Made by a program: the position numbers and the translations under genes
The notes under the pieces: model-generated
Told to the model about the DNA's origin: nothing
The model's database searches: none
The model's input: only the letters and a program-made list of their open reading frames with translations
Assembly: GCF_014696065.1 (NCBI RefSeq)
Contig: NZ_JACJPL010000002.1
Span: 1 to 64,000, forward strand
DNA: 64,000 bases
Direction: 5' to 3'
Origin: Leptolyngbya sp. FACHB-261
Lineage (GTDB): Bacteria; Cyanobacteriota; Cyanobacteriia; FACHB-261
In this document: positions 390 to 22,923 of the stretch, in pieces
Layout: each line of letters opens with the position of its first letter
Position numbering within the stretch: the stretch's first letter is position 1

Positions 390-3300
390 GTGTACATCAA
401 GCGACTGGAACTGACCCGCTTCAAGTCTTTTGGTAGTACGACGGTGATCCCGCTGCTACCAGGATTCACTGTCGTTTCTGGGCCTAATGGTTCTGGGAAG
501 TCCAATATTTTAGACGCCTTGCTATTTGCTCTGGGACTAGCAGGTTCCAAGGGTATGCGGGCTGAACGCTTGCCAGATCTAGTCAACAACAGCCAAAAGT
601 CGCGCAGCACAGTCGAGGCAAGCGTTAAAGTCACTTTTGACTTAGAAGACGGCAACGATGGAGAGTGGAGTGTCACTCGCAAACTGCGTGTCACGCCGCA
701 GGGCACTTACACCTCTACCTATGCCATTAATGACGTTCCCTGTACCTTAACTGAGCTGCACGAACAGTTAGCAGAGCACCGCATTTACCCTGAGGGGTAC
801 AACATCGTGCTGCAGGGGGACGTCACCAGCATTATCTCGATGAGTTCGCGGGAGCGGCGGCAAATTATTGATGAGCTCGCCGGAGTGGCCGCCTTCGACC
901 GCAAAATCGACCAGGCTAAGGAGAAACTGGACGCCGTTAAAGAGCGCGAAGACCGTTTTCGCATCGTTGAAAAAGAACTAATTGCCCAGCGCGATCGCCT
1001 TGCACAGGATCGCATTAAAGCCGAAAAATATCGAAAGCTCCGAGCTGAAATTCAGGCTATGGAGCAATGGGAGGTTGTTCTTAACGGCAGACAACTACAG
1101 CGACAGCAAACCCAACTGCGAGAGCAAATCCGAAGCTGTGAGCAAAACCGGACTGAGCTCAGTACTCAGTTAGCAGAGTTAACTATTAATATTGCTCGCG
1201 CCAGCGCTGAACTAGAGCATGCCAATCAGCGGGTTAAAGCTCTGGGCGAAGATGAGCAACTGGCACTACAGTCTCAGAAAGCGACACGTGAGGCAGAACT
1301 GCGAGCTGTGACGCGCTCTGCTCAGGAGTTGTCTCAAGCGCAGAAAACCGATCAAAATACACTGATTCACCTGCAAGGCGAGGTTCAGGAACACCACGGC
1401 TCTCTGGAGCGGCTCAATGACCAGTTCCGCGGTCAGATTGAGCAAATTGAGCAGCTAGTTGCCCGGCAACAGCATCAACAGCAATTGCTGGCCCGGTCCC
1501 GCGAATCGCTTCAGACCATTGCTGAATCTTCGAATACCTCGGTGCAGCAGCAAACTCAGCTGCGCCACCAGATCGATACCCTGCTGAGTACGCTCGACCC
1601 ACAGCGCCAAGAGCAAACTCGCTTGCGAGAGCGACTGAGCCAGCTTGAACGCCAGATTCAGGACCAGAAGACGGAATTAGCTCGTCTAGATAACGACTTG
1701 ATTGAGCGGCAGAACTTGCTCAGGGAAAAGCAAGCTGAATCAACCGATCAGCAAGAACGGGTCCAGTCTTTAGCGCAATCCTTGACAACGGCGCAGCAAG
1801 AAGGGCAGACCCAGCAGGCGACTCGCGACCGGCTGAGCGAAGAGCAAACTAACCGCCAACGGCAGTTGGACCGCATCGAAGCTCGGGCACAAGCTATCCA
1901 AGAAGTGCAGGGAACTTACGCCACGCGGTTGATTCTGCAGATGGAGTTACCTGGGGTTTGTGGGTTAGTAGCTCAACTCGGTCAGGTCGATCCGCATTAT
2001 CAGTTAGCTCTCTCGATTGCAGCAGGTGCGCGTTTGGGCCACCTAGTTGTGGAAGATGACGGTGTGGCAGCGGCTGGGATCGAACTGCTCAGGCGGGAAA
2101 AAGCAGGTCGCCTCACCTTTTTGCCCCTCAACCGCATCCAGCCCGCTCGCTCGCTCCCCCGCTTGCAGGCAAACGGAGCTATCGACTACGCGCTCAACCT
2201 GATTCAATTTGATGAGCGTTACATTGATGTGTTTGCTTATGTGTTCGGCAACACAGTTGTCTTTGAGCATTTGAGTGACGCCCGACGCTACCTCAACCAA
2301 TACCGCATGGTCACGATAGACGGGGAGTTGCTAGAAAGCTCTGGCGCAATGACCGGCGGTAGCGCGCAGAAGAACAGCCTTCAGTTTGGTACAGGCTCCC
2401 CAGCAGAATCAGATGAGGCAAAAGCCCTCAAGGAACGCCTTCAGGAAATTGAACGCTTGCTCAAGCTGATCAACCAGAAGATCCAGGTGGCTCAAGCCAA
2501 CATGACGCACCAGAGCGAGCAACTGGCTGAATCTCGCGCTCGCCATCGGGATGCTCACTCCCAGATTGATCCTCTCACTCAAGCGATTGCCAGCCTTAAC
2601 GGTCAGCGCGACCGCTTACGGCAAAACCTAGAGTCAAATCAGCAAGAACTCCAGGCCAGCCGTCAGCGGTTGAGTGAATTAGACCAGAACTTACCCGTTC
2701 AGGAAGCCGATTTGCAAATCCTGCGTCAAGAACTGGGTCTGTTGGAGCAGTCTCAAGACCACAGTGAGTGGCAGCAGGCTCAAGCGGCAGTTAGCGAGCA
2801 GGAAGTGCGGCTGGCAGAACTGGACGTGAACTTGCGCAGCGCCCGTGATCGCCAGAGTGATGCCACAACTCAAGCTCAAGTGCTTCAGGAAAAGATTAAG
2901 CAAAGCGAAGCCCGGATTCAGGAGTGCCGGCGTCGCCAAACTGACCAGCTCAACCAGCAAACTCAGCTGACCCAGCAACGGCAGCAGTTGGAAGCCACTC
3001 TGGCTCAGCTGCAACAACAACTGGCCACGTTAGAGGTGCAGCTAGGCTCCGAAAAACAGCTGCGAGATCGCCTAGAACGCCAGTTGCGCGAGCAGACCAA
3101 TGCCCGCCAGGAATTGGAGTGGCAATTGAGCCGGCTCCAAGAGCGTCAGCAGGAAGCGCAGCAACAGCTCGAAAGCGTCCAGACCAGTTTGCAAGAGTAC
3201 AGCCAGAACTTGCCCGATCCCGAACCTGAAGTTCCTGCCGATCTCACTTTAGAACAGCTGGCTTCTGAGTTACGCAGCCGCACTCGTCGCTTGCAGGCTA

Positions 3301-3896
3301 TGGAGCCAGTCAACATGCTGGCGATTGAAGAATACAACCGCACCCAGGAGCGCTTGGACGACCTCAGCCAGAAGCTAACTACGCTTGAAGAGGAGCGTAC
3401 CGAACTGCTGCTGCGGATTGAGAATTTCACTACGCTACGCCTGTCAGCCTTTAAAGAGGCGTTTGATGCAGTAGACAAGAACTTCCAGGTGATCTTTGCC
3501 GAACTCTCAGACGGTGACGGTCATTTGCAGCTCGAAAACGTAGCCGATCCTTTTGCGGGAGGTCTCAATCTGGTTGCTCATCCCAAAGGCAAACCGGTGC
3601 AGCGCTTAGCCTCTATGTCAGGGGGCGAAAAATCGCTAACAGCCCTCAGTTTCATTTTTGCCCTGCAGCTCTATCGGCCCTCCCCGTTCTACTCCTTTGA
3701 TGAGGTAGATATGTTCCTGGATGGGTCGAATGTAGAGCGATTGTCTAGAATGGTAAGGAAGCAGGCAGATTCCGCCCAGTTCATTGTGGTTAGCCTGCGG
3801 CGACCTATGATTGAGGCGGCTGAACGCACAATTGGGGTCACGCAAGCGCGAGGTGCTCATACACAAGTCCTAGGCTTGAAGCTGCGCTCTGGCTAG
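390..3896 (+). CDS. smc: Chromosome segregation protein SMC
   Basis: This 1168-residue protein is a bacterial SMC ATPase, which with ScpA/ScpB forms the condensin that organises and segregates the chromosome. Walker A GPNGSGKSN lies at residues 31-39 after the typical N-terminal KRLELTRFKSFG. Two very long Gln/Glu-rich coiled coils flank a hinge at roughly 510-660. The C-terminal head carries the ABC signature MSGGEKSLTALSF and Walker B FYSFDEVDMFLDGSN. Length is normal for the family. The start is GTG at 390, which begins the conserved MYIKRLEL; no ATG sits between it and the Walker motif. The extreme C-terminus is complete. It stands alone, with about 170 non-coding bases before the next gene. 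Confidence 0.97.
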   Translation: MYIKRLELTRFKSFGSTTVIPLLPGFTVVSGPNGSGKSNILDALLFALGLAGSKGMRAERLPDLVNNSQKSRSTVEASVKVTFDLEDGNDGEWSVTRKLRVTPQGTYTSTYAINDVPCTLTELHEQLAEHRIYPEGYNIVLQGDVTSIISMSSRERRQIIDELAGVAAFDRKIDQAKEKLDAVKEREDRFRIVEKELIAQRDRLAQDRIKAEKYRKLRAEIQAMEQWEVVLNGRQLQRQQTQLREQIRSCEQNRTELSTQLAELTINIARASAELEHANQRVKALGEDEQLALQSQKATREAELRAVTRSAQELSQAQKTDQNTLIHLQGEVQEHHGSLERLNDQFRGQIEQIEQLVARQQHQQQLLARSRESLQTIAESSNTSVQQQTQLRHQIDTLLSTLDPQRQEQTRLRERLSQLERQIQDQKTELARLDNDLIERQNLLREKQAESTDQQERVQSLAQSLTTAQQEGQTQQATRDRLSEEQTNRQRQLDRIEARAQAIQEVQGTYATRLILQMELPGVCGLVAQLGQVDPHYQLALSIAAGARLGHLVVEDDGVAAAGIELLRREKAGRLTFLPLNRIQPARSLPRLQANGAIDYALNLIQFDERYIDVFAYVFGNTVVFEHLSDARRYLNQYRMVTIDGELLESSGAMTGGSAQKNSLQFGTGSPAESDEAKALKERLQEIERLLKLINQKIQVAQANMTHQSEQLAESRARHRDAHSQIDPLTQAIASLNGQRDRLRQNLESNQQELQASRQRLSELDQNLPVQEADLQILRQELGLLEQSQDHSEWQQAQAAVSEQEVRLAELDVNLRSARDRQSDATTQAQVLQEKIKQSEARIQECRRRQTDQLNQQTQLTQQRQQLEATLAQLQQQLATLEVQLGSEKQLRDRLERQLREQTNARQELEWQLSRLQERQQEAQQQLESVQTSLQEYSQNLPDPEPEVPADLTLEQLASELRSRTRRLQAMEPVNMLAIEEYNRTQERLDDLSQKLTTLEEERTELLLRIENFTTLRLSAFKEAFDAVDKNFQVIFAELSDGDGHLQLENVADPFAGGLNLVAHPKGKPVQRLASMSGGEKSLTALSFIFALQLYRPSPFYSFDEVDMFLDGSNVERLSRMVRKQADSAQFIVVSLRRPMIEAAERTIGVTQARGAHTQVLGLKLRSG

Positions 3897-4069: not shown

Positions 4070-4990
4070 ATGACAACGACATCTGAACCTGTTCGCCAGC
4101 GCTCGTCGATCCTGGGCACCCAGGTGATCAGCAAGGCAACCGCCCGACGGCTCGGCGTGGTTTCCCAGCTCTGGCTGGACATGGATCAGCGGCAGGTTGT
4201 AGCAGTCAGCGTGCGAGACAACCTGATTGCTGGAACGCCCCAATACATGTCTCTGTCCAGCATTGCGCTGCTGGGACCCGATGCCATTCTGGTCGATAAC
4301 GAAGATGTCTTTGAAGACATCAACGTTGATGCTTACACCAGTCTGATTGGCAGTGAAGTCGTCACCGAGACTGGGGAACTGCTCGGTAAGGTGCGTGACT
4401 TCAAGTTTGACCCAGGCAACGGTGAGATCTTTCAGCTCATTCTGTCCTCGCTGGGTATTCCCCTAATTCCCTCTCAAGTGGTTAGCACCTACGAGTTGGA
4501 TGTCAATGAGATCATCGCTGTAGGCCGAGATCGCATCATTGTCACTGAAGGCATGGAAGAGCGTCTGACCCAGCTGACCGTGGGCATTCTTGAGCGTCTG
4601 GGCATCGGCAAGCCACCCTGGGAGCGGGATGAAGATTACATCTCGACCGTTGATCCCAATGACATGCTGGGCACTGGCTCCAGCCGTCCCTCTACCGCTC
4701 GCACCGTAACCACTCGGGCCAGTGAGGATATGTGGGATGACGACAACTGGTCTAAATCCCGCCCTGCTGCCCGCCGTAAAGCTCCAGAACCCTACTACGA
4801 CGAAGAGCTAGAGGAAGCTGATAACTGGTCGGACGAAGCTGAGGAATACGAAGAACCTTACGAAGAAGACAACCGTTACCGCCGCGACAACGAGGATGCT
4901 TGGTCCGACGAAGAACCTTACGAAGCGCCTCGAGTCAACATTCCCCAGAAGCAGCGCCAGCCCGAGTACGAAGAAGAGAAAGACTACTAG
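4070..4990 (+). CDS. PRC-barrel domain protein with acidic tail
   Basis: A 306-residue soluble protein with two PRC-barrel-like units, at about residues 10-75 (ILGTQVISKATARRLG) and 85-165 (YTSLIGSEVVTETGELLGKV). From about residue 200 the sequence becomes low-complexity, rich in Glu, Asp, Tyr, Arg and Trp, with repeated DNW, EEPY and DEEPYE blocks, and is probably disordered. PRC barrels occur in the photosynthetic reaction-centre H subunit and in RimM. Cyanobacterial two-barrel proteins of this kind are widespread, but their role is not known to me. It has no membrane segment. Downstream, bioF starts about 40 bases after the stop, so co-transcription is possible but not implied by function. 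Confidence 0.85.
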   Translation: MTTTSEPVRQRSSILGTQVISKATARRLGVVSQLWLDMDQRQVVAVSVRDNLIAGTPQYMSLSSIALLGPDAILVDNEDVFEDINVDAYTSLIGSEVVTETGELLGKVRDFKFDPGNGEIFQLILSSLGIPLIPSQVVSTYELDVNEIIAVGRDRIIVTEGMEERLTQLTVGILERLGIGKPPWERDEDYISTVDPNDMLGTGSSRPSTARTVTTRASEDMWDDDNWSKSRPAARRKAPEPYYDEELEEADNWSDEAEEYEEPYEEDNRYRRDNEDAWSDEEPYEAPRVNIPQKQRQPEYEEEKDY

Positions 4991-5030
4991 GCTCCCCACC
5001 CAAGGTGAAGCCCCTTCTGGTCCATAGCTC

Positions 5031-6218
5031 GTGAGTCCCTATCGCTGGCTAAGCCGCTCTCTGGCGACCTTAAAGCAAGCGGGTTGGTATCGCTCTGTAC
5101 AACCTGCCACTGGTCGGGCAGGGTCAGTCGTTGAGCTGGACGGGCAACAGTTGCTCAACTTTGCTAGCAACAACTACCTGGGATTGGCAGGCGATGAGCG
5201 CTTGATTGAGGCAGCAGTGCTTGCCACCCGTACCTACGGCACTGGCAGCACTGGCTCGCGGTTACTGACCGGCCATCTGGAGCTACATCGGCAACTCGAA
5301 CAAGCACTAGCGCGGCTCAAGCAGACCGAGGACGCTCTGGTCTTCAGTTCTGGTTACAGCGCCAACTTGGGAACGATCACAGCCCTGGTTGGTCAGCGTG
5401 ATCTGGTGCTCTCAGATGCTTACAACCACTCCAGCCTCAAGAATGGTGCGATCCTAAGCGGCGCAACGGTCCTAGACTACGCCCACCTTGACTTGGCTGA
5501 CTTGGGCCAAAAGTTAGCGCAGCATCGCCAGTCCTATCGTCGCTGCTTGCTTCTGAGTGACAGTGTGTTCAGCATGGACGGTGATTTGTGCCCTTTGCCA
5601 GCGCTATTGGATCTGGGAGACACTTACGATTGCATGCTCCTACTGGACGAGGCTCACGGCACGGGTGTTCTAGGAGCGCATGGAGCTGGGTTAGTTGAGC
5701 AGGCAGGTTGTACTGGTCGGCCTTTGGTGCAGGTAGGGACACTTAGCAAAGCTCTGGGTAGCCTAGGTGGCTATGTCGCCGGTTCAGCAGAGTTAATCGA
5801 CTTTCTGCGCAATCGTGCTCCCAGTTGGATCTACACCACAGCCCTGTCACCAGCTGACACTGCCGCTGCCTTGAAGGCTGTAGAAATTGTGCAGGCTGAG
5901 CCAGAGCGCCGCGCCCAGCTATGGAGCAACGTTACCTTTCTGCGCCAGGCGCTCTCTGGTCTCGATCTACTGCCTTCTGAATCGCCAATTCTCTGTGTCC
6001 GAAGCGGTGACATTCCGCAAACCTTACAACTCGCTCAAGCCTTGAGACAGGCTGGGATTTTTGCGCCTGCTATCCGTCCACCGACCGTACCAACCAGTCG
6101 GATTCGACTAACTGTAATGGCAACGCATACACAAACGGATCTAAGAAACCTGGCTCAAGTGTTACAAAGCTATGCCGAGGTATCCACAGATTCATCTTTA
6201 CCTACAAATGTTTACTAG
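5031..6218 (+). CDS. bioF: 8-amino-7-oxononanoate synthase
   Basis: PLP-dependent alpha-oxoamine synthase of 395 residues that condenses pimeloyl-ACP or pimeloyl-CoA with L-alanine in the first committed step of biotin-ring synthesis. Visible family features are the NNYLGL motif near residue 48, [11 protein letters not shown] near 72-82, DEAHGTG at 206-212, and the PLP-binding lysine in [13 protein letters not shown] (K240). Length is normal. The start is a GTG at 5031 preceded by a weak ribosome site. No other bio gene is adjacent, which is common in cyanobacteria. A closely related fold is KBL (glycine C-acetyltransferase), but the length and N-terminus favour BioF. Confidence 0.9.
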
Positions 6219-20278: not shown

Positions 20279-21538
20279 TCAGATTGAGGAAACTGCACTA
20301 GTTGAGAATCCTACACTACTACCATTCGCGTTAGTATTATTTATCATCTCCTGAGCTACCTGCTTCTCAATCTGGTCAGTTTCATCGTCATTCAAGTACA
20401 AACACTTAACCTGTAAATAAGCCAGTACAGTACGGGCATCATTACCATGAATAGATTCTTCTTCAATTAAGGTGAGGAGCTTGGAATATATCTCTTTGTA
20501 ACGTTTCTCATTATATTGACGATTTGCTTCTTGCTCCTTGGATTCCTGTTCAATTACCTCTATATGCTCGCGTTTAATTCCTGTAGACTTTTCAATCCTT
20601 CTTAGCTCGTTTTTAACGTCTTCACTTATGACCCCCTGATTCTTCCGAATTCCATCAGAAAACACCTGTTTGTAGCGGCGCAAACTCTTCCGATACTCTT
20701 CCCTTGTCCCAACAACTCGTTCTTCTATTAGCCTTATATCATCATCACTAAGCTCCAACGATTGCTGTATCTTCCTCAACCCAATGCGGGTGTAGGGGCT
20801 AGGAGGATACTCTCTCTCCAATGCATAATACAACTGTTGCTCGTATTGTTGAAGCCTCTTTTGAAGTTCTATCCATTGTCGAGAATTAATTTGTCTGTCA
20901 ATTTGCTCTGTATGTTCCAACGCAAGCCCATATTTGGTTCTTAAGACATTAAGGACATCATTTCCAAGTGGAATTTCCTCAAGAAAGGCATCGGAGAAGA
21001 GAACTCTCTCAGAGAGCTTCTGCCGATAATCCTGCAAATTCCACTGTAATATCTTCTGCCTCCGATTTTCTATCAGCTTTTCAATACGGTCCTGAAGCCG
21101 TCTAACAATGTTTTGAAATGCATCATCTTGAGTTGGCCAAACCCTTCTATTATTTACGTGTTCACCGCCTTCAGGTAGGGGTTCAAGTTCGTGAAGCAAG
21201 GTAATCTCCCAGTTGACTGGACGGAGTATTACAGGAATAACACAAGCTTTTCCTGCTTCATGTCGTCTTATTGATAGCGTGAATACAGTCTCTCTTGCGT
21301 AATCTGAGCAGATCAGATCTGAACTCAGCAACAGCAAAATTACATCGGCTTCATTTATATGACGTTCGATTTCACACTTCTTATCTTGGGCCTCGATCTG
21401 TTCACAGTGCCAAACTACGTTTGTGAATAAATAGAGAGATTTAAGATGCTTCTCCAGGTCACCTACTAAACCTTTGTCTTTCTCAGAGAAGATATAAAAC
21501 GCTTTGATTGGTATATCAAGTTCTAAGAGTTCAGACAT
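20279..21538 (-). CDS. TIR-domain protein with C-terminal helical repeats
   Basis: 419 residues from the ATG at 21538 (MSELLELDIPIKAFYIFSEK); a longer form from 21586 exists but its extra residues look untranslated. Residues about 8-150 are a bacterial TIR domain: the FYIFSEKDKGLVGDLEKHL start, ADVILLLLSSDLICSDYARE with the Glu expected for NAD-cleaving TIRs, RHEAGKACVIPVILRPVNW, and the LEPLPEGGEHV end. After a long helix come repeated helical units that share the pattern L-R-x(4-6)-L-x(4)-D/H-I-x-x-I-E (near LALEHTEQIDRQ, LELSDDDIRLIEERV, TGIKREHIEVIEQE, LYLNDDETDQIEKQV). Third gene of a minus-strand cassette; probably a defence or self/non-self signalling protein by family, not proven. Confidence 0.85.
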   Translation of the reverse strand: MSELLELDIPIKAFYIFSEKDKGLVGDLEKHLKSLYLFTNVVWHCEQIEAQDKKCEIERHINEADVILLLLSSDLICSDYARETVFTLSIRRHEAGKACVIPVILRPVNWEITLLHELEPLPEGGEHVNNRRVWPTQDDAFQNIVRRLQDRIEKLIENRRQKILQWNLQDYRQKLSERVLFSDAFLEEIPLGNDVLNVLRTKYGLALEHTEQIDRQINSRQWIELQKRLQQYEQQLYYALEREYPPSPYTRIGLRKIQQSLELSDDDIRLIEERVVGTREEYRKSLRRYKQVFSDGIRKNQGVISEDVKNELRRIEKSTGIKREHIEVIEQESKEQEANRQYNEKRYKEIYSKLLTLIEEESIHGNDARTVLAYLQVKCLYLNDDETDQIEKQVAQEMINNTNANGSSVGFSTSAVSSI

Positions 21539-21646
21539 AGCAGGGCACCAAGAGAATAGATTGGGTAGAGAGGGCATTCGATCCAAATCTGACTATTTCC
21601 TTCCAAGCTCCCTTTATCCACAAGGAGAACAACACTAAAGGAAAGA

Positions 21647-22423
21647 TCAAGATAAATTTCTCATCTTCTTAGCTATAGTTCGGAGCCTGTCTTCAATCTC
21701 AGAGAATGCTTCATCCTCAGAAGGCCATACCTTTTTATTGGTAACATGTTGACCTTCACTAAGTAGCGGTTCCAATTCCCGAAAAGGTGTAGATTTCCAA
21801 CTGCATGGACGAAGAATAACAGGGATGACGGAAGCCTTTTTAGCTTTATATTGGCTCAGCGAGATTTCGGAAACTTCACGACATAGTGCGGAATTGATGG
21901 AATCATCAATAAAGTCTTGACTCATTAGAGGCAGAATAATACGCGCCGAGTTCAGATTCTCTATCACCACACGACGTTTATTACTACCTGGTTCAACGTA
22001 GCCCTCGTGCCAGTGCTTAATTAAGCCCTCATTCTCCAGTGAGTTGAGCCGCTTTTTAAATTCTTTCCAAAGCCTAACATCCCTGTTGGATTGGCGAGAA
22101 TACCAGCAAAAAACTCTGATAGGCGCCTTGGGAGGTACTGAAATATGATAGTTATCAGGGGGAGAACTTATTTCCATCCCCTCAATCTCTTTCATATCCT
22201 CAATTTCTAATCCACTAGCAGCTGATGAATGTTGACTCGGAGAAGATGGCAGACTGCTTGACAGTCTAGCAATGTTCTGGTGACACTCTTCGATCAGCTC
22301 ATCAAGCTCAAATTTTTGTTCAGCACTTGCAGTTTTAGCTCGCTCTTTCTCGAAAGAAAATAGCTTCTTTCTCCATATGTCGATTGCGTTGTTCGAGTCT
22401 GAAGAGGAATAACCTTGGTTCAT
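21647..22423 (-). CDS. TIR-domain protein with N-terminal adaptor-like helix
   Basis: 258 residues. Residues about 15-60 are a charged helix (KKLFSFEKERAKTASAEQKF) that closely resembles the N-terminus of the upstream protein. A Ser/Pro-rich linker follows, and then a TIR domain at about 100-255: RVFCWYSRQSNRDVRLWKEF, an EPGSNKRRVVIENLNSA segment, ARIILPLMSQDFIDDS, the Glu of CREVSEISLSQYK, KKASVIPVILRPCSW and ELEPLLSEGQHV. Its ATG overlaps the stop of the upstream gene (ATGA), so translation is coupled. The next TIR gene starts about 108 bases downstream. TIR enzymes of this type cleave NAD or make cyclic ADP-ribose signals; which applies here is unknown. Confidence 0.85.
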   Translation of the reverse strand: MNQGYSSSDSNNAIDIWRKKLFSFEKERAKTASAEQKFELDELIEECHQNIARLSSSLPSSPSQHSSAASGLEIEDMKEIEGMEISSPPDNYHISVPPKAPIRVFCWYSRQSNRDVRLWKEFKKRLNSLENEGLIKHWHEGYVEPGSNKRRVVIENLNSARIILPLMSQDFIDDSINSALCREVSEISLSQYKAKKASVIPVILRPCSWKSTPFRELEPLLSEGQHVTNKKVWPSEDEAFSEIEDRLRTIAKKMRNLS

Positions 22424-22923
22424 GCTTTATTGCTAAATAATGTTTTAATTCCTCGCCACACTCTAACTATTGAAGCTTCCGTGTCGAGTTCCATCTCATA
22501 TGATGCAATGAGTGGAATGACAGGCAAAGCTACTTTTAGTTTTGCTGCTGCGGTTTTTCCGGGGTCTTCTAGCTTCTCCCGGATATCCATTAATAGCTGT
22601 CTCATCTCGTCTGGATACTTGTCAAGCGGAGAACTTTCAAGGTGTTCGACAGCTTGAGTGACTTGAATGATAGCAGTCTCTGCATCTGGCTCTGAGATCA
22701 AGAATGCTTCTGACTCTTTAGCAAGGAGTTCACCATACTCAACTTCGTGCTTACGAATGCTGGGTAAGATTTCTCGTTTGATTCGCTGTCGTAGTTCAAA
22801 GTTTGCATTAGCACTAGCGCTAAGGTCAAGCTCTTTCTGAAATTCACCGAGCTTTTCGTATTCAATTTCAAGAATCTCTTCTAGATGAATCAACCTCTGT
22901 TGATTTATTCGATCAGGACGCAT
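22420..22923 (-). CDS. Adaptor-like protein of the TIR cassette
   Basis: 167 residues. Residues about 10-65 form a helical segment (EYEKLGEFQKELDLSASANA, NFELRQRIKREILPSIRK) that matches the N-terminus of the next protein in spacing and key residues (K-L-x-x-F-x-K-E...S-A-S-A...F-E-L), so both carry the same small domain. This resembles the effector-associated adaptor domains described in cyanobacterial conflict systems, an inference from pattern only. The C-terminal part (AAAKLKVALPVIPLIASYEM) has a mildly hydrophobic stretch followed by an ELDTE motif that I recall from other cyanobacterial signalling proteins. First gene of the operon, with a 733-base spacer upstream. Confidence 0.7.
   Translation of the reverse strand: MRPDRINQQRLIHLEEILEIEYEKLGEFQKELDLSASANANFELRQRIKREILPSIRKHEVEYGELLAKESEAFLISEPDAETAIIQVTQAVEHLESSPLDKYPDEMRQLLMDIREKLEDPGKTAAAKLKVALPVIPLIASYEMELDTEASIVRVWRGIKTLFSNKA

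Follow-up and report, generated by a model that had tools for sequence, protein, structure and literature searches.

Among the bacterial systems that come closest to the locus described here are those built on effector-associated domains (EADs), i.e. small, mostly helical modules that are found fused to effectors (caspases, TIRs, kinases and others) and that occur, according to the parts of the two papers drawn on here, in conflict systems with cyanobacteria among their hosts (PMC7159879, PMC8195603). Other points of comparison are the TIR protein ThsB of the Thoeris system, the tandem helix pairs of HEAT/ARM-type repeats, the ENT domain and, outside the bacteria, Tic110. The latter belongs to the inner envelope of plastids and has membrane helices at its N-terminus, and its fragment CmTic110C forms a rod-shaped scaffold of helix repeats (PMC3823011, in the part drawn on here).

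The protein under study, P0001, is encoded on the minus strand of a window of 64,000 nucleotides (the whole stretch of DNA that was analysed) at 20279..21538, stop codon included, and counts 419 residues from its ATG or 435 from an alternative TTG start at 21586. It consists of a TIR domain (residues 10-157; 21068..21511, minus strand) followed by four tandem repeats of ~58 residues (residues 167-394), and represents a plain version of this architecture, as no domain was seen C-terminal of the repeats. Like the EADs, the repeat has caspases, TIRs, kinases and further effectors as fusion partners, but it is present in tandem whereas EADs are single domains, and, where an EAD would be expected to recur in an adjacent gene, the host-genome searches showed no copy of the repeat in either of the two genes adjoining P0001. 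No EAD match was obtained for P0001 at E-values up to 10 in Pfam, a library expected to contain EAD models, and the repeat is not named as an EAD in the parts of PMC7159879 and PMC8195603 drawn on here. The array shares its tandem helix pairs with HEAT/ARM-type repeats, but its helices are unequal (about 35 and 13 residues) and no HEAT or ARM family of Pfam matched P0001 at E-values up to 10.

We consider it probable that the C-terminal half of P0001 is a four-copy array of a cyanobacterial two-helix repeat that forms an elongated scaffold, in which each unit would comprise a long (~35 residues) and a short helix (~13 residues), each followed by a loop, with a period of 56-61 residues. The resulting helical rod would bind putative partners or self-assemble, and the TIR domain, having probably lost NAD cleavage, would serve as an adaptor domain within a putative three-gene cyanobacterial operon of the conflict or cell-death type.

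The repeats themselves were recovered in several ways. The original prediction saw a sequence pattern that recurs four times at a spacing of 50-65 residues, and the four strings concerned indeed begin at residues 205, 261, 319 and 380 (counted from the ATG), i.e. at spacings of 56, 58 and 61. They cover only part of the repeat unit, which also has a first helix near an 'LxxYxxxF' motif and a second helix that comes after a 'YPLSxxTR'-type loop. Ungapped self-comparison of the repeat region peaked at an offset of 58 with a score of 54, a score reached by none of 1000 shuffles (mean 28). An HMM built from relatives, with the rows of P0001 deleted, placed copies at residues 169-217, 229-275, 286-332 and 367-394, the last of these lacking its first helix. 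We delimit the repeats as R1 (residues 167-217; 20888..21040), R2 (228-275; 20714..20857), R3 (286-332; 20543..20683) and R4 (345-394; 20357..20506), all on the minus strand. Their domain E-values with the P0001-free HMM, in a search of this one sequence, were 0.0025, 1.1e-18, 1.2e-8 and 0.00039, respectively, and among 2000 shuffles per region the real score was reached once for R1 and never for R2, R3 or R4. R2 is the canonical, best conserved copy and R1 and R4 are divergent; since the first seed of the alignment contained R2, the repeat register is not fully independent of P0001. The repeats had no significant match in Pfam or NCBIfam; a hit to DUF4226 in Pfam (E 0.092) and weak matches in the PDB to biotin ligase and demethylases were set aside as chance similarities between helix-rich sequences.

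Two AlphaFold2 models bear on the fold. The model of full-length P0001 (alignment of 16 rows) has a mean pLDDT of 73.3, with means per ten residues of 85-94 in R2-R3 (residues 231-340), of 33-71 near R1 and of 63-81 near R4, where confidence is thus low to moderate; in its confident part, helices of 35 and 37 residues lie between short ones of 13-14 residues. For the second model, built from 12 rows for the seven repeats of L101, a caspase protein from Nostoc, the mean pLDDT is 89.5, and this model shows the same alternation (helices of 33-37 and of 13-14 residues). P0001 hence displays both features by which we define the two-helix repeat family, the HMM score and, as predicted, the alternation of long and short helices, and the notion of repeated helical units is borne out by copies that score beyond shuffles and by both models. 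The predicted fold is an elongated helical scaffold of two-helix units. One might instead propose a coiled-coil stalk through which the TIR domain dimerises and which holds no real repeat units, on account of the long helices rich in Gln, Glu and Arg and of weak matches of single units to families of the apolipoprotein and spectrin kind. Both models, though, show short helices and loops between the long ones, the single continuous coiled coil that had been named in advance as the contrary outcome appears in neither, and the loop motifs are conserved across units, which makes such a stalk very improbable. In comparisons with solved structures, Foldseek gave no match to the L101 model at E <=0.001. 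The best VIA match was the ENT domain 5zx1, which superposes on one unit (Z 9.8, 61 residues, 1.5 A), a Z-score below the ~13 under which, as the tool warns, a match may signal a mere common arrangement among helical repeats; the Tic110 structure 4bm5 was absent from the best 50 of 57 Foldseek and the best 50 of 215 VIA matches.

The TIR assignment relies on a match to the PADLOC model of ThsB (1.1e-24), on Pfam TIR_2 (5.3e-6; 27.4 bits, slightly below the cut-off of 28) and on the modelled fold, which resembles the TIR domain of RPS4 (4c6t_B; Z 14.1, 133 residues, 2.6 A) in a search with the whole model that covered the TIR domain alone (residues 8-157). P0001 thus has a TIR fold, as modelled, and matches the profile of ThsB, but differs from ThsB in the added repeat array and in carrying Val85 (21284..21286, minus strand) at a column where 36 of the 38 aligned TIR rows have Glu (two of these rows, L127 and L155, being one protein) and the neighbouring TIR has Ser. 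With the addition of six TIRs from the host genome, drawn from seven others that matched there, Glu occupies this column in 39 of 44 rows. We take this Glu to be the catalytic residue of NAD-cleaving TIRs. Because of the Val at this position, the TIR domain of P0001 is probably non-enzymatic, i.e. has lost NAD-cleaving activity, with the caveat that Glu83 lies only two residues from Val85. Given a TIR that is probably devoid of this activity, P0001 is most likely a TIR-bearing adaptor, and the suggestion in the original prediction that the repeats drive the TIR domain becomes doubtful.

An active Thoeris-like enzyme, in which the repeats sense or oligomerise and the TIR domain either turns NAD into a signal or depletes it, would agree with the strength of the ThsB match and of the fold similarity and with the Glu retained in the nine other distinct TIR-repeat proteins (L128, L141, L148, L155, L156, L157, L158 and L159 by alignment, L027 by eye). 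We regard it as unlikely: besides the Val at the Glu column, P0001 has Ile16, Phe17 and Ala81 where Ser (36/38), Tyr (37/38) and Cys (35/38) are usual, its ThsB score is 85 bits versus 197 and 189 in two relatives, and the host genome gave no match to a ThsA-type STALD/SLOG domain in a search that ran without a working positive control.

The adaptor reading also draws on the neighbouring genes, two of which lie upstream of P0001 on the same strand. The first (21647..22423, minus strand; 258 residues) encodes another TIR domain, ~40% identical to that of P0001, after an N-terminal helical 'KFEL' segment; the second (22420..22923, minus strand) encodes a small helical protein of 167 residues and overlaps the first by an ATGA. 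The gap upstream of the ATG of P0001 amounts to 108 bases, a scan for terminator-like sites returned none, and a promoter scan gave 6 sites versus 7.4 in shuffles. The 167-residue protein has no significant Pfam match and its family is found in 18 of 145 genomes, host included. In five neighbourhoods, as classified by eye, this family is accompanied by an NB-ARC-like STAND gene, a second STAND-like gene, CHASE2- and CHAT-like genes, a MoxR-vWA-like pair and an unclassified gene, and the N-terminus of the second TIR protein matches those of the STAND protein (5e-8) and of the unclassified gene (2.8e-5). The locus fits the published conflict-system loci, as far as these are described in the parts of PMC7159879 and PMC8195603 drawn on here.

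The Glu column has Val in one TIR of the window and Ser in the other, and with R1 and R4 divergent the genes might be decaying, both TIRs having lost the catalytic residue as the operon dies. This we judge to be quite unlikely, as none of the three reading frames is interrupted and each overlaps its neighbour or lies near it, and as three of the six other host TIRs (L188, L190 and L192) have Gln at the Glu column, so that change at this position is not confined to the P0001 locus. The locus also supplies TIR domains that look non-catalytic and may be useful for asking what such domains do in bacteria.

The repeat has no name in the libraries searched and is widespread in cyanobacteria. Queried with the repeats of the window, 142 of 388 genomes of the host's class gave a match (E 0.01), and a 40-row repeat profile matched 133 of 242 genomes of that class at 1e-6. 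A degenerate DNA pattern run over the genome_contigs collection retrieved 77 stretches, 75 of which encode the repeat according to the HMM; 74 of the 77 carry titles that we take to be cyanobacterial, judging genus names from general knowledge. In the data searched, the family is nearly confined to cyanobacteria. Single-protein scans of genome_contigs and viral_contigs returned no relative, and our search of the open-access literature found no report of the repeat, which does not imply that none is in print. The sole other repeat-bearing record, a 'Tatlockia' MAG contig (L095), carries genes of cyanobacterial type for caspase-like, WD40-like and repeat proteins and, by eye, is probably misbinned.

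Clustering at 50% identity reduced 123 ORFs with at least two repeats to 33 clusters. The representatives of these clusters together with P0001 (34 proteins) were compared to Pfam and, among the matches listed (25 of 89 families), caspase was found in 14, GUN4 in 11, TIR in seven (P0001 included), and WD40 and FGE-sulfatase in four each. Individual examples of fusions are those to a kinase plus WD40 (L026), to DnaJ_C (L030) and to TIR plus GUN4 (L027), and three repeat proteins (L037, L038 and L041) have CHAT-like N-termini by eye. That one repeat recurs alongside caspase-like, kinase, TIR, GUN4 and further modules makes a role as a platform for protein interaction or oligomerisation the most likely one. 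The variety of effectors to which it is fused thus lends plausibility to the oligomerising half of the earlier proposal of a ligand-binding or oligomerising repeat, while none of the results points to ligand binding. By linking caspase, TIR, kinase and GUN4 proteins, the repeat is a candidate shared adaptor in the wiring of cyanobacterial conflict and cell-death responses.

Some members of the family deserve separate mention. L148 (220-1989) combines a TIR domain, three repeats and an ARC6-like IMS domain (Pfam 5.4e-9) in one protein, the IMS domain taking its name from a plastid-division protein (ARC6). L036 (943-2604) joins a repeat array to a GUN4-like region, and PDC-S48, a candidate defence model of PADLOC, hits the repeats of this protein (8.8e-9, residues 140-263); matches of relatives to PADLOC PD-T4-6 fell mostly outside the repeats (in the kinase end or C-terminal region) and were discarded. 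In L160, a TIR gene (846-3797 and 4552-5448 being the two genes concerned) lies upstream of a seven-repeat caspase-like gene on the same strand, and the TIR-gene match contains one in-frame TAA.

At the sequence level the repeat units resemble the helical repeats of Tic110 (PF16940; CmTic110C, 4bm5), which consist of helical units with a similar motif, e.g. FRAEIEHAIENGLITPENQSLLKESQEELGISAEKA in the 4bm5 chain, and the two may be related by descent. P0001 itself differs from Tic110 in carrying a TIR domain, stays without a match to the Pfam model at E-values up to 10 and so does not reach its curated score. Among relatives, the L036 array scored 39.5 bits (E 3.5e-10; cut-off 27) and L022 gave 2.4e-4, under the cut-off; with the L036 array as a single-sequence query of the PDB, 4bm5 was the sole match at E-values up to 1 (E 0.11). 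A double-repeat profile searched against 177,635 PDB sequences ranked 4bm5 first (E 0.0057, at least four stretches), whereas the reversed profile gave a best E of 0.12 and no Tic110. With a type-A repeat profile Tic110 was the top natural protein (1.6e-4 versus 0.021 for ENT), outranked by four chains that are, by their names, of the designed-repeat type. Four repeat models scored a 212-residue stretch of 4bm5 at 23.7-26.3 bits, versus at most 14.3 for every scored shuffle of 20,000.

In the opposite direction, a profile of three Tic110 units was run on 547 ORFs (127 of them repeat ORFs) plus 127 reversed decoys. Repeat ORFs took 39 of the top 40 and 97 of the top 100 places, decoys none and one, and reversed Tic110 units selected reversed decoys. 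Sixty column permutations of the profile yielded a mean of 11 repeat ORFs in the top 40 (maximum 28); thirteen column rotations still yielded 20-40 and so are no useful control. When each unit was run by itself, the top 40 contained 31, 13 and 27 repeat ORFs and 0, 12 and 2 reversed decoys for the first, middle and third unit, so that the middle one gave no signal. As the units had been picked for an earlier alignment to the repeat, this test and that on the 4bm5 stretch are partly circular. Unit-level resemblance is thereby seen in both directions, the second with that circularity, for the family and not for P0001 by itself.

Whether the resemblance reflects descent or convergence is a matter of weighing. 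Convergence on a generic hairpin of helix, loop and N-cap ('LGLSxEEA'), as in ENT domains and designed repeats, has in our estimate close to an even chance. It would account for the designed-type chains ranking above Tic110, for the ENT domain as best VIA match and for the absence of any Tic110 match at E-values up to 1 for the seven-repeat L101 array. Single units match other families equally often or better: among 40 double units compared singly to Pfam, Tic110 and Spore_III_AB were each hit by seven (best Tic110 E 0.0023) and PG_binding_1 by two, with a best E of 7e-6. Arrays also inflate summed scores, as the L036 array when reversed scored 27.0 bits against an unrelated family, compared with 11.7 bits or no match at all for four shuffled copies. 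Over the 388 genomes, the Tic110 model matched in 11, one of them above the cut-off, versus none of 14 controls; six matched through a repeat protein (L036/L047, L037, L038, L040, L041 and L046). The matches in the other five, without the repeat, were set aside (L043, L044 and, gyrase-like by eye, L039, L042 and L045), and the gyrase-like proteins reach 4.5e-4 with the Tic110 model, again as convergence would have it. Against convergence stand the missing Tic110 with reversed double units, the precedence of Tic110 over ENT with the type-A profile and the near-exclusive recovery of repeat ORFs by the Tic110 units compared with reversed decoys and permuted profiles. The rod shape of CmTic110C fits a common origin but is a common shape (PMC3823011, in the part drawn on here).

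Descent would mean that Tic110 derives from a cyanobacterial repeat module now found in signalling proteins that contain caspase, TIR, kinase or GUN4 domains, and that the signalling or suicide machinery of the endosymbiont supplied part of plastid import; we put this forward tentatively, with the chances somewhat against it. To our knowledge, Tic110 is usually held to be without a cyanobacterial homologue, and our open-access literature search found no link between Tic110 and cyanobacterial repeats, which is no proof of absence from print. If the link is one of descent, a testable cyanobacterial source for a component of plastid import comes within reach.

Within the host genome, searches located the repeat in the P0001 gene and on contig C22, with a weak match on contig C27 (E 0.045). 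On C22 (10110-13505; L161, 111-3506) it is carried by a Tubulin_2 protein (1.4e-95) with two repeats at its end, and the gene that follows (L034) encodes, by eye, CxxC motifs and a region like that of substrate-binding proteins.
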